A stretch of DNA of 64,000 nucleotides from Mesorhizobium sp. M2A.F.Ca.ET.046.03.2.1 (lineage in GTDB: Bacteria > Pseudomonadota > Alphaproteobacteria > Rhizobiales > Rhizobiaceae), in NCBI RefSeq assembly GCF_003952425.1, contig NZ_CP034449.1, forward strand, positions 5,692,001 through 5,756,000. Reading direction: 5' to 3'. The translations under genes and the position numbers were made by a program. This document shows, in pieces, positions 32,711 to 44,806 of the stretch (positions within the stretch are counted from its first letter, which is position 1; each line of letters begins with the position of its first letter). Under the pieces are notes generated by a model. The model was given only the letters and a program-made list of their open reading frames with translations. It was not told where the DNA came from and made no database searches.

Positions 32711-33993
32711 GCGAGGCGGCGACAGCGGCCAAATCAGGAGCGGGCGCCTTTTCCGGCTTCGAGCGCATGGTGGCGTGGCGCTATCTGCGCTCGCGGCGCA
32801 AGGAGACGGTAATCTCGGTCATCGCCTCCATCTCCTTCCTCGGCATCATGCTCGGCGTCGCGACGCTGATCGTCGTCATGGCGGTGATGAACGGTTTCCG
32901 CGCCGAGCTGCTCACGCGAATCCTCGGCGTCAACGGCCATCTCATCGTGCAGCCGCTCGATTCGCCGCTGGAGGACTACGCCCAGGTGGCGAGCCGCATC
33001 AACGGCGTCTCGGGCGTCAAATACGCGATCCCGCTGATCGACGGCCAGGTGCTGGCGCAAGGCAATGTCGGCGGCGGCACGGGCGCCCTGGTGCGCGGCA
33101 TCCGCGGCGAGGACCTCGGCAAGATCTCGATCGTTTCCAGCAACATCAAGCAGGGCACGCTCGACGGTTTCGACACCGGCGAGGGCGTGGCGATCGGCAA
33201 GCGCATGGCGGAAAGCCTCGGGCTGGTGCTCGGCGATACTATCACGCTGATCTCGCCGGACGGAGACGTGACGCCGCTCGGCACGACGCCGCGCATGAAG
33301 GGCTACAAGGTGGCCGCGATCTTCGAGGTCGGCATGTCGGAATATGACAGCTCGATCGTCTACATGCCGTTTTCGGAAGCGCAGCTCTATTTCAACATGG
33401 ACGGGCGCGCGCAGACCATCGAGATCTATGTCGACAATCCCGACAATGTCGATGCGCTGAAGCCGCTGGTCGAGCAGGCGGCGCAGCGGCCGGTCGATCT
33501 CGTCGACTGGCGCCAGCGCAACGAGACCTTCTTCTCGGCGCTGCAGGTCGAGCGCAACGTCATGTTCATGATTCTCACGCTGATCGTGCTGGTGGCGGCG
33601 CTCAATATCATTTCGGGCCTCATCATGCTGGTGAAGGACAAGGGCCACGACATCGCCATCCTGCGCACCATGGGCGCCTCGCGCGGCGCGATCCTGCGCA
33701 TCTTCCTGATGACCGGGGCGGCGATCGGCGTCACCGGCACGCTCGCCGGCGTGCTGCTCGGCGTCGTCATCTGCATCAACATCGAATCGATCCGCCAGTT
33801 CTTCTCGTGGATGACCGGCAGGATACTGTTCAACCCCGAGCTCTATTTCCTCAGCCAGCTGCCGGCGAAGATGGACCCGCGCGAGACGACCTATGTCGTC
33901 ATTATGGCGCTGGGCCTGTCCTTCATTGCGACGGTGTTTCCGGCTTGGCGGGCCGCCCGGCTCGATCCGGTCGAAGCCTTGAGGTACGAGTGA
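32707..33993 (+). CDS. lolC: Lipoprotein-releasing ABC transporter permease LolC/E
   Basis: FtsX-family permease that, with LolD, extracts lipoproteins from the inner membrane. One N-terminal helix ([19 protein letters not shown], residues about 33-51), a periplasmic domain, then three C-terminal helices, with [20 protein letters not shown] and the LolE/C motif [13 protein letters not shown]. 428 residues; a single LolC/E type gene is usual in this group. Start ATG overlaps the proS stop (ATGA). Confidence 0.93.
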
Positions 33994-34673
33994 TGGCCGA
34001 AGCCATTATCGAGCTGAAGGGCGTCGAGCGGCACTACGTCCAGGGGCCGCGCAAGCTCACCATTCTGAACGGCGCCGACTTTTCGCTGAGGCGCGGCGAG
34101 ATGGTGGCGCTGGTGGCGCCATCGGGTTCCGGCAAGTCGACTTTGCTGCATACGGCGGGACTGCTGGAGCGGCCCGATGCTGGCGACGTGATCCTCGCCG
34201 GCCGCGCCTGTGGCCGCCTCTCCGACGAAGAGCGAACCGCGATCCGCCGCAACGATATCGGCTTCGTCTACCAGTTCCATCATCTGCTGCCGGAATTCTC
34301 GGCGCTCGAGAACATCATGATGCCGCAGCTGATCAAGGGGCTTCCTCCCAAGGAGGCGTCGGAGCGGGCGGCACAGCTTCTGGATTACATGCAGATCGGC
34401 AAGCGCGCGCAGCACCGGCCGGCCGAGCTTTCCGGCGGCGAGCAGCAGCGTGTCGCCATTGCCCGCGCGGTCGCCAACGCACCGCTGGTGCTCCTGGCCG
34501 ACGAGCCGACCGGCAATCTCGATCCGACGACCGCCTCCTATGTCTTCGATGCGCTCGAAGCGCTGGTCCGGCAATCGGGGCTGGCGGCGCTGATCGTCAC
34601 CCACAACCACGAGCTGGCTTCGCGCATGGACCGGCGGGTGACGCTGGCCGAAGGCAAGGTGGTGCCCCTGTAG
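33993..34673 (+). CDS. lolD: Lipoprotein-releasing ABC transporter ATPase LolD
   Basis: ABC ATPase with Walker [19 protein letters not shown] near residue 43, Q-loop [16 protein letters not shown], signature [19 protein letters not shown], Walker [13 protein letters not shown] and H-loop VTHNHELA. 226 residues. Overlaps the lolC stop (TGATG). A palindromic repeat follows immediately. Confidence 0.96.
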
Positions 34674-34675
34674 GC

Positions 34676-34812
34676 CAAGCCGGTATTCGGATGAGGCTGG
34701 CCTGCGGACGGCAGTTTCCTGCGCTTCCGGTGCTCACGTACTTTAAGTACGCTCCGCTCCAGTTCTCGGAACCTGCCATCCTCGACTCAGCCTGATCCGA
34801 ATTCCGGTTTGG
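34676..34812. repeat. Palindromic element PAL-C copy 1 after lolD
   Basis: The outer arms CCGGTATTCGGATGAGGCTG and CAGCCTGATCCGAATTCCGG are near-complementary. The core carries CTTCCGGTGCTCACGTACTT and AAGTACGCTCCGCTCC shared with the copies at 36471-36637 and 44668-44806. All three copies begin within nine bases of a stop codon, suggesting a role at transcript 3' ends. Confidence 0.85.
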
Positions 34813-34909
34813 CCTGGCTCCGCGCAACGAACCTCATCGCTCGTCAACCTTTCCTTAACTCTGCCCAAACGGACCGGCTGAATTCGCTCCGCCGGGCTAT
34901 CGACGGTCG

Positions 34910-34944
34910 TTGACATTCGAACAAAATTAGAACAAATTACGAAC
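34910..34944 (+). promoter_or_regulatory. Promoter with two overlapping LexA (SOS) boxes
   Basis: GAAC occurs three times at exact 11-base steps (34919, 34930, 34941), giving two overlapping GAAC-N7-GAAC boxes, the complement of the alphaproteobacterial LexA consensus GTTC-N7-GTTC. A TTGACA at 34910-34915 gives a -35 element whose spacer and -10 region are covered by the boxes, the expected position for repression. The next ATG, at 34966, is that of the 28-residue peptide. Confidence 0.8.
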
Positions 34945-34965
34945 ATACTAACAACGGAGAGAGTT

Positions 34966-35052
34966 ATGTCTGATCTGGTTCAGGATGTCGTCTCGCTGGT
35001 TTGCATGAGCACCTTTCTCGTTTCCATGGCGATCTGGATCGGCGCCATGTGA
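34966..35052 (+). CDS. SOS-controlled 28-residue membrane peptide
   Basis: A short ORF starting MSDLVQDVVSLV, with a hydrophobic segment over residues 8-28 that ends WIGAM. It is preceded by a good ribosome site (CGGAGAGAG) five bases upstream and by tandem LexA boxes. Two acidic residues (Asp3, Asp7) at the N-terminus and a single transmembrane helix resemble, in design only, SOS-induced micropeptides such as Caulobacter SidA (29 residues, cell-division inhibitor) and E. coli TisB (29 residues, depolarising toxin). Function here is an inference. Too short for usual gene callers. Confidence 0.7.
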   Translation: MSDLVQDVVSLVCMSTFLVSMAIWIGAM

Positions 35053-35219
35053 TCAGGCGGCCTCGCCGCCGCTGTTTCGGGCGGGCGAGGGCCCGCCCTT
35101 GCGGGATGGGCAAGAACCCGCCTGGGATGGGCAAGAGCCCGGCCATTGTTGTTAAGTCTTTCTTGGCCGCGCCGACGTAGGCTGCCCATCCAGACAGGAG
35201 CCCAAGACAGGGGAGCCAA

Positions 35220-36470
35220 GTGTCGGTCTTCGTCACGGTCACCCTCGTGGCCGGCAATCTCGGACTGATCTTCCTTTTGATGACCGTGCCGCTCGGGTCG
35301 CGCACGGTGACGGTCAGCCGCGTGATCAAGGCCGATCGCGAGCGCCTCTGGCAGGCGTTGTGGCCGTTCGGAAGCGACGCCGGGTGGTCCGGGGAAATCC
35401 TTTCGGCCGAGCCGCTGGACGGCGAGGGAACGGCGCTGATCAGATTGTCCTGGGATGGCCGGGACGGGCGGCCGATCGAACGCAAGTCGCGGTTCGAGGA
35501 TGTCGGCGAGGGCAGCCGCTTCTCGATGACGGTCATCGAGGACACGGCGCTCGACCCGTCCTTCTGGGCGAATTATCGCGAGACCGTCGCGCTTTTGCCC
35601 GAGGGCGATGCGACGCGGGTGACGCTTACCCAGACCGACCGCTATCGCGGCGTTGCCTTCCTGGTCTTTCGCTTCTTCGCCATGCGCCGTGAGATACGCA
35701 AGCTGGATGTCTGGGCGGCAACCGGCACTTATCGCAAGGGCGGCTGGTTCGAGCATCCGCTGAGCCAGATCGGTTTCGCCGTGCTCTCGGCCCTGATCCT
35801 GTGGCCGTTCTTCGGCCTCAATATCGGCGGGCTGGCGCTGGCCGCGATCCTGACCTCGGTGGTCGCCCTGCACGAGCTCGGTCATATGGCCGCCTTCCGC
35901 CTGACGGGACATCGCCGGGCGCGCATGATCTTCATCCCGCTGCTTGGCGGCATTGCCATCGGCGGCAGGCCCTATGACAGCCGCTTCGAGGTTGCTTTCG
36001 TGGCGCTGATGGGCGCCGGCTTCTCCGCTTTCCTGGTGCCGGTGCTGATCGCCGCCAGCGGCCTCGCCGGCAGCGAAGGACATCGCCTGGCCGCGACGCT
36101 TTTGGCCACGCTTGCCGGCTGCGCATCGCTGTTCAACATCGCCAATCTGGTGCCGGTGTGGAAATTCGACGGCGGCCAGGTGCTGCGCCAGATCTGCCCC
36201 GGCCCGGCGGTACTCGCGCTGGCGTCCTTCCTGCTCTTGTCCGCGCTTCTCGCGCTTGGCTGGCGGGCCGGTTTCTCGCCGAGCTTCCTGCTGATCGCCG
36301 GCGCGGTGTTCTCGATCCTCAGCCTCATCACCGTGGGCAGCGGCGTCAAGCCGCGCCACGAGCTGAAGCCGATCAAGACCTTCGACCGATTGGTCATGGC
36401 CGGCGCTTTGCTCGCGGTCTTCGCCATCCATGGCTATGGGATGCTGTGGGCTTCCGCGCAGCTCATGTAG
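35220..36470 (+). CDS. SRPBCC domain fused to site-2-protease (M50) membrane metallopeptidase
   Basis: 416 residues. After one N-terminal helix, residues about 28-160 look like a START/SRPBCC ligand-binding domain (VSRVIKADRERLWQALWPFG opening, typical of polyketide-cyclase-like proteins). Then come about six transmembrane helices with HELGH at 218-222 and NLVPVWKFDGG at about 309-319, the zinc and NxxPxxxxDGG motifs of site-2 proteases. An intramembrane protease with a possible lipid- or small-molecule-binding front domain is inferred; the substrate is unknown. GTG start preceded by GGGGAG. Stands alone between the SOS peptide and lipB. Confidence 0.78.
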   Translation: MSVFVTVTLVAGNLGLIFLLMTVPLGSRTVTVSRVIKADRERLWQALWPFGSDAGWSGEILSAEPLDGEGTALIRLSWDGRDGRPIERKSRFEDVGEGSRFSMTVIEDTALDPSFWANYRETVALLPEGDATRVTLTQTDRYRGVAFLVFRFFAMRREIRKLDVWAATGTYRKGGWFEHPLSQIGFAVLSALILWPFFGLNIGGLALAAILTSVVALHELGHMAAFRLTGHRRARMIFIPLLGGIAIGGRPYDSRFEVAFVALMGAGFSAFLVPVLIAASGLAGSEGHRLAATLLATLAGCASLFNIANLVPVWKFDGGQVLRQICPGPAVLALASFLLLSALLALGWRAGFSPSFLLIAGAVFSILSLITVGSGVKPRHELKPIKTFDRLVMAGALLAVFAIHGYGMLWASAQLM

Positions 36471-36637
36471 GGTGTGTCGATATTCAGGTGAGGCCGGCCT
36501 GCAAATGTCGGCTTCCTGCGCTTCCGGTGCTCACGTACTATAAGTACGCTCCGCTCCGGTTCTCGGAACCGCCTTGTTTGGTCGCTTCGCGCCCGTCTTC
36601 GACTCCGACTCGGCCTGACCTGAATCTCAACACACCC
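36471..36637. repeat. Palindromic element PAL-C copy 2 between convergent genes
   Basis: The outer arms GGTGTGTCGATATTCAGGTG and CCTGAATCTCAACACACC pair. The core is CGCTTCCGGTGCTCACGTAC and AAGTACGCTCCGCTCCGG. It fills the gap between the M50 gene and lipB, which converge, so a bidirectional terminator role is plausible. Confidence 0.88.
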
Positions 36638-44667: not shown

Positions 44668-44806
44668 GACAGTCGATATTCAGGTGAGGCCGGCCTGCAA
44701 ATGGCGGTCTCTTGCGCTTCCGGTGCTCACGTACTTCAAGTACGCTCCGCTCCGGTTCTCAGAAACCACCATTTTCGACTCGGCCTGACCTGAATCTCGA
44801 CAGTCC
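44668..44806. repeat. Palindromic element PAL-C copy 3 after mgtE
   Basis: Third copy: outer arms GGACAGTCGATATTCAGGTG and CCTGAATCTCGACAGTCC, core CTTCCGGTGCTCACGTACTT. It begins at the mgtE stop, matching the 3'-end position of the other copies. Confidence 0.87.

Follow-up and report, generated by a model that had tools for sequence, protein, structure and literature searches.

The locus described here almost certainly holds a real gene for a membrane micropeptide behind a LexA-type promoter. By analogy with SidA of Caulobacter crescentus, we favour with moderate confidence the reading that its product, a LexA-repressed single-helix peptide of the inner membrane, postpones cell division in the SOS response. 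The gene lies in a window of 64,000 nucleotides, by which we mean the whole stretch of DNA analysed, from the 7.37 Mb genome of Mesorhizobium sp. M2A.F.Ca.ET.046.03.2.1. An earlier sequence-only reading had reported a TTGACA hexamer, three regularly spaced GAAC words and, after a ribosome site, an ORF of 28 codons, and all of these could be read in the sequence (Table 1). It had also placed the boxes across the promoter; hexamer and boxes are both present, but the boxes are located just downstream of the -35 element, in the spacer and -10 area, and not across it.

Table 1. Positions of the features of the micropeptide locus, numbered from the first letter of the window
Feature	Position	Strand	Basis
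-35-like hexamer TTGACA	34910-34915	+	sequence
LexA-type box 1, GAACN7GAAC	34919-34933	+	sequence, conservation in relatives
LexA-type box 2, GAACN7GAAC, middle GAAC word common to box 1	34930-34944	+	sequence
GAAC words at 11-base steps	first letters 34919, 34930, 34941	+	sequence
Ribosome-binding site GGAGAGAG	34956-34963	+	sequence
28-codon ORF MSDLVQDVVSLVCMSTFLVSMAIWIGAM; ATG 34966, TGA 35050-35052	34966-35052	+	sequence
Nearly uncharged hydrophobic segment, codons 8-28	34987-35049	+	composition
lolD-like ABC ATPase gene, usual upstream neighbour of the peptide gene	33993-34673	+	TIGR02211 match
Peptidase-M50-type gene, next downstream of the peptide gene	35220-36470	+	domain match

Upstream of the peptide gene the window carries proS, lolC/E and lolD-type genes, and downstream of it the M50-type gene and, on the opposite strand, lipB. 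The lolD-like gene is the best match in the genome to TIGR02211 (LolD), with 259.5 bits, below the curated cut-off of 307.75, and is preceded by a lolCE gene that scores above the cut-off of TIGR02212. The M50-type gene combines a peptidase M50 domain with a Polyketide_cyc2-type N-terminus; it adjoins the peptide gene here and in some members of the family, and in others no BLAST match to it was found beside the peptide gene. A repeat with the core GTACTTNAAGTACGCTCCGCTNC occurs in three copies in the window (34738-34760, 36535-36557 and 44731-44753) with 0-1 mismatch, and in none of 100 shuffles; the first copy sits between lolD and the SOS-type promoter. The only match from an Rfam scan was a sub-threshold one to the microRNA family MIR8670, on both strands of the stretch 34672-34816 that contains this first copy, perhaps because, as we guess, the family includes a bacterial sequence.

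By number, the LexA-type boxes are ordinary. GAACN7GAAC matches the window only twice, both times at the peptide gene, and shuffled windows held 1.53 matches on average, with two or more in 44 of 100. What goes beyond chance is the position and the conservation of the boxes, not their count. All 30 genus loci read have a box no more than 80 bases from the start codon, and outside the genus a strict GAACN7GAAC stood just upstream of the ORF in 84 of 94 loci, whereas dinucleotide shuffles gave one in 0.47% and random windows from the same loci in 0.05%. Taking 30 genus and 95 other loci together, 114 of the 125 had a strict box and 118 a TTGA[ACT] or TTGCA word in the 80 bases upstream. Eleven rows that were phage-like, weak or out of register (L189, L217, L222, L223, L228, L240 and L244-L248) had been left out before this count, and since none of them has a strict box their omission raises the fraction, which is 114/136 with them. 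The count of 94 also drops L200, whose promoter is cut by a contig end; the strict box is absent in 10 of the 94, and with all 12 rows restored the figures become 84 present and 22 absent among 106. Certain genera occur repeatedly, and the loci are therefore not independent.

The spacing of the elements is likewise kept. In 65 of the 84 boxed loci outside the genus, the first base of the box lies 47-54 bases ahead of the ATG, and a TTGA or TTGC word precedes the first GAAC by 9 or 10 bases in 62 of the 79 such loci that have both a strict box and the word. The exact three-word triple is present in 20 of 30 genus loci and 17 of 94 others, and in 60 of the 94 if one mismatch is allowed in the third word. 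A GGAG precedes the start codon by at most 18 bases in 30/30 genus loci, while one of GGAG, GAGG or AGGA could be found as ribosome site in 90/94 of the rest. A sigma-70 consensus scan of the locus passed no promoter and identified no -10 element, and a simple scan of the locus found no promoter, antisense promoter or terminator.

The genome has one LexA gene above the NCBIfam cut-off, with a box of the GAACN7GAAC type upstream of lexA itself. The LexA consensus of Caulobacter is stated as GTTC(N7)GTTC in the accessible part of one report (PMC12907096), which is the same site on the other strand. The exact triple GAACN7GAACN7GAAC occurs at four places in the genome and its reversed-pattern control at none; the three further places are 1140631-1140656, 1816209-1816234 and 6091591-6091616. 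A GAACN7GAAC direct repeat at the promoter is kept in the relatives, and these conserved boxes argue for control of the SOS type, as the sequence-only reading had predicted.

A short ORF behind conserved boxes might be a chance ORF and no gene at all, and 28 codons are indeed few; we give this almost no weight. The peptide was found in 37 of 37 genus genomes, its own included, with E below 1e-9, and purifying selection is evident: 109 genus ORFs, of which 63 are distinct and among which some strains are perhaps present twice as separate records, give a pN/pS of 0.099, or 0.077 with the Jukes-Cantor correction. Synonymous changes predominate, and the variable columns among the 28 codons number 9, 1 and 22 at the first, second and third codon positions. 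Conservation across 30 genus loci spans TTGAC through the stop codon and falls off on both sides. If the start codon closest to the first position of the profile is chosen, the ORF has 28 residues in 122 of 125 loci; an in-frame ATG up to 12 codons further upstream exists in 16 of 94 loci outside the genus and 3 of 30 within it. Boxes and ORF are retained together. The comparison for boxes kept beside a lost ORF, the case that the earlier reading had named as its refutation, did not turn out against that reading, but the loci had mostly been found through the ORF. All of this argues for a genuine conserved gene.

The peptide recurs unchanged in close relatives: among the best 80 of 139 stretches, 20 named contigs carry an identical copy, 18 of them from Mesorhizobium and two from MAGs. 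A single-sequence search of the family matched 133 of 247 genomes at E<=1, the weaker of these matches probably being due to chance. A 22-row profile (A1) matched 115 of the 247 at E<=0.02, in 56 of 109 genera, and a second profile (A2), built from 10 rows of which seven were box-free and three boxed, matched 164 at E<=0.001, in 80 of the 109 genera, phage-borne copies included. Nineteen of the 83 genomes negative with A2 were examined behind lolD, and 11 of them had a strict box and a hydrophobic micro-ORF there; the other eight had none, three of these genomes being 2.0 Mb or less in size and one incomplete. Three family genomes of 1.1-2.0 Mb (L446, L447 and L452) have a lolD-type gene with neither box nor micro-ORF after it, for which loss through genome reduction is a possible explanation. 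Outside the family, the peptide search gave nothing better than E 0.9 in 24 genomes of other families, and among 385 genomes of the class the only strong profile match was the genome itself, the next having an E of 0.0046. In the order, 6 of 121 genomes matched, three belonging to the genus and three being weak (L186, L187 and L188). L187 has a boxed locus between a lolD-type gene and the start of DnaE; L186 and L188 are situated in long frames and were set aside.

Alignment of 98 distinct 28-residue homologues showed which features of the peptide are held fixed. F17 is present in all 98 and D7 in 97; position 10 is S in 76 and A in 22, and W occupies position 24 in 62. In 97 of the 98, no D, E, K or R occurs at positions 8-28; the mean Kyte-Doolittle value of this segment over all 98 is 2.16, and the peptide bears on average about 1.9 negative and 0.3 positive charges. 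By its composition, the segment 8-28 is predicted to be a membrane helix, which bears out the earlier description of an ORF about the size of SidA that ends in a single hydrophobic helix. Since conservation showed only a weak periodicity at the helical angle, a single conserved helix face is no more than a possibility. No model in Pfam or NCBIfam covers the peptide. A Pfam match to zf-met2 (E 0.3, in 2 of 22 members) was taken as chance, and the one match from a PDB sequence search (E 9.3) was of no use.

TisB of E. coli is an SOS-induced type I toxin of 29 amino acids whose helix is charged and amphipathic, and toxins of its type have an antisense RNA and a long structured leader. A TisB-like peptide would insert into the inner membrane and depolarise it, leading to dormancy and not to a specific block of division. 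The earlier reading had likened the peptide to SidA and TisB together. Size, topology and SOS-type promoter agree with both, the peptide sharing with TisB its SOS control, its length of about 29 residues and its one hydrophobic helix; the TisB half of the comparison is disfavoured, and we consider such a toxin unlikely. The helix is almost free of charge instead of being charged and amphipathic, and there is little positive charge in the peptide as a whole. The genus loci have no conserved flank, conservation dropping as soon as the stop codon is passed and likewise ahead of TTGAC, and hence no conserved antisense RNA is seen there. The predicted fold of the RNA 34946-35110 is little more stable than those of its shuffles (z -1.53, 13 of 200 being at least as stable), and the sub-threshold Rfam match lies in the upstream repeat. 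A short acidic N-terminus followed by a near-uncharged helix with fixed positions is more in keeping with contact to a membrane protein than with a pore.

In relatives, lolD is the usual neighbour of the peptide gene. An ABC-ATPase signature of the lolD kind, recognised by pattern, lies upstream of it in 90 of the 125 loci. An SOS membrane micropeptide directed at some other target, such as the LolCDE lipoprotein machine, a protease or a transporter, would fit this linkage, and the conserved helix residues would suit a protein partner of that sort. However, the peptide gene has its own promoter, so the linkage to lolD may be merely positional, and we know of no damage-induced regulator of Lol; we regard another target as a minor possibility.

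Downstream, an N-terminal motif of DnaE, again recognised by pattern, was found within the stretch read in 41 of the 125 loci, and the one such ORF that was checked is DnaE. This would agree with a role as leader peptide or uORF, tuning the dnaE gene behind it during damage, as would the available part of a report on S. meliloti in which sORF25 is described as a translated ORF in the dnaE1 5'-UTR (PMC10117765). The loci L286-L305, from 20 genomes of the family, resemble that described for sORF25 (PMC10117765, in the part available), with a DnaE motif downstream in 20/20 and a lolD-type motif upstream in 14/20; as a guess from locus position, translation of the peptide in a relative may already be on record under that name. 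For the gene studied here a role as dnaE leader is nevertheless quite improbable. What follows it in the window is the M50-type gene and lipB, not dnaE, and lipB or an M50 gene also comes next in many family loci; moreover, the peptide keeps both its amino-acid sequence and its hydrophobicity, and a uORF would need neither.

Sequence search stops at the family, and the lolD neighbourhood was therefore used in order to reach beyond it. We read 126 intervals downstream of lolD outside the family, 46 of them from 102 matches in the order and 80 from 136 in the class (two of the 80 falling in the same order); they were picked by hand from the upper parts of the lists, with some rows skipped. A strict box was present in 33 of these intervals, 25 of 48 in the order and 8 of 78 in other orders, and 93 had none. 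Starting from the box and not from the ORF, 31 of the 33 boxed intervals had an ATG within 110 bases that opens an ORF of 22-50 residues with a strongly hydrophobic segment. The same criterion was satisfied in 1.2% of cases when the sequence was shuffled, in 3.3% when positions were drawn at random and in 2.5% when they were taken from intervals with no box. The criterion was fixed after the first such cases had been seen, which makes 31/33 somewhat optimistic, but the difference from these null values is wide. Among the 33, a few share a genus and have near-identical peptides (L311/L313 and L329/L331). The two without a micro-ORF, L432 and L315, have two strict boxes each behind lolD, only ATG starts being counted. 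By eye, several of these micro-ORFs keep a D-x-x-A-L ... W pattern. It is likely, as far as sequence can tell, that they share descent with the family peptide, and the label 'rhizobial' given by the sequence-only reading looks too narrow.

Copies of the gene were also observed on phage and prophage-like contigs. In IMG/VR, a relative of 32 residues is encoded at six loci (L279-L284), none with a strict box directly upstream of it, and the bacterial loci L217, L222, L245 and L246 hold copies of this box-free kind with 29-33 residues. Not every one of these copies counts as independent, since L279 contains L217, and L281 and L282 have much sequence in common. The genome of L217 also has a boxed copy (L218), and the two share 54% identity. 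A search of PHROGs with neighbouring proteins, which on the bacterial side covered five of the eleven left-out rows (L189, L217, L222, L245 and L247), identified exonuclease VIII (L217, L222 and L281), RecT-like annealing protein (L279 and L283), repressors (L222 and L283), HNH endonucleases (L281 and L283) and a DNA methyltransferase (L281). The single neighbour proteins of L245 and L247 gave nothing, and the other neighbours tested were unmatched or fell in families of unknown function. With the host and phage peptides as queries, tblastn returned nothing from 50,697 phage records, and of 29 candidate stretches obtained with the host-type alignment against IMG/VR none was confirmed. The phage copies read as a host gene captured into a phage early region, and they suggest that viruses may use the same division switch.

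Coming back to the SidA-like reading, we propose the following course of events. In an undamaged cell, LexA would occupy the direct repeats behind the -35 hexamer, as the conserved boxes suggest. On DNA damage, RecA-stimulated cleavage of LexA would allow the message to be made and translated, with a short leader of some 20 nt if the start site lies where the -35 element places it. Going by its composition, the peptide would insert with its acidic N-terminus (D3 and D7) at one face of the membrane, probably the cytoplasmic one, and helix 8-28 would lie in the membrane. S10, F17 and often W24 could then pack onto a late-divisome protein in the membrane. By analogy, FtsW or partners among FtsI/FtsN would be the likeliest target, and septal wall synthesis would be held off until LexA returns.

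In Caulobacter, sidA, as CC1927, presumably adjoins dnaE. The dnaE gene of C. crescentus is CC1926, as given in the accessible part of one study (PMC1839093). SidA is described, in the portion of the source available, as an SOS-induced inner-membrane protein of 29 residues that acts on FtsW (PMC4211646), and by this description the peptide is like it in LexA-type control, in size (28 residues) and in its single membrane helix, the last predicted by composition (PMC4211646). Small SOS-induced membrane inhibitors of division are an already known kind. YneA, ChiZ and SosA are similarly small, damage-induced, one-helix membrane proteins acting on late division steps, but YneA and ChiZ also carry a LysM domain, whereas the peptide here is a helix alone (PMC13396833, as far as its available text goes). 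According to the same part of that 2026 study, the YneA helix contacts FtsW TM7, and AlphaFold 3 models place the helices of ChiZ, SosA and SidA likewise on FtsW, at less than high confidence (PMC13396833). It also states that the YneA helix on its own binds FtsW without blocking division (PMC13396833), and a bare helix therefore need not inhibit.

A wider reading, which we put forward tentatively and hold at somewhat less than even chances, is that the position downstream of lolD houses an ancient SOS checkpoint of the alphaproteobacteria of which SidA would be a local version, and that temperate phages took up the gene, dropped its boxes and use it to stop host division. The checkpoint would consist of a LexA box followed by a single-helix peptide that evolves fast, and the phage copy, placed among early genes, would serve lytic growth. 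Among the matches listed from the open-licence literature, taken as titles and the starts of abstracts, there was no SOS division inhibitor for rhizobia or their relatives, and neither this peptide family nor the rule for its locus. A single conserved gene makes it testable how these bacteria hold division during DNA damage. The recurrence of a box and a helix at one locus would also be a way of finding division checkpoints where sequence search fails. In the host, a nitrogen-fixing soil bacterium, the peptide probably pauses division while DNA is repaired.
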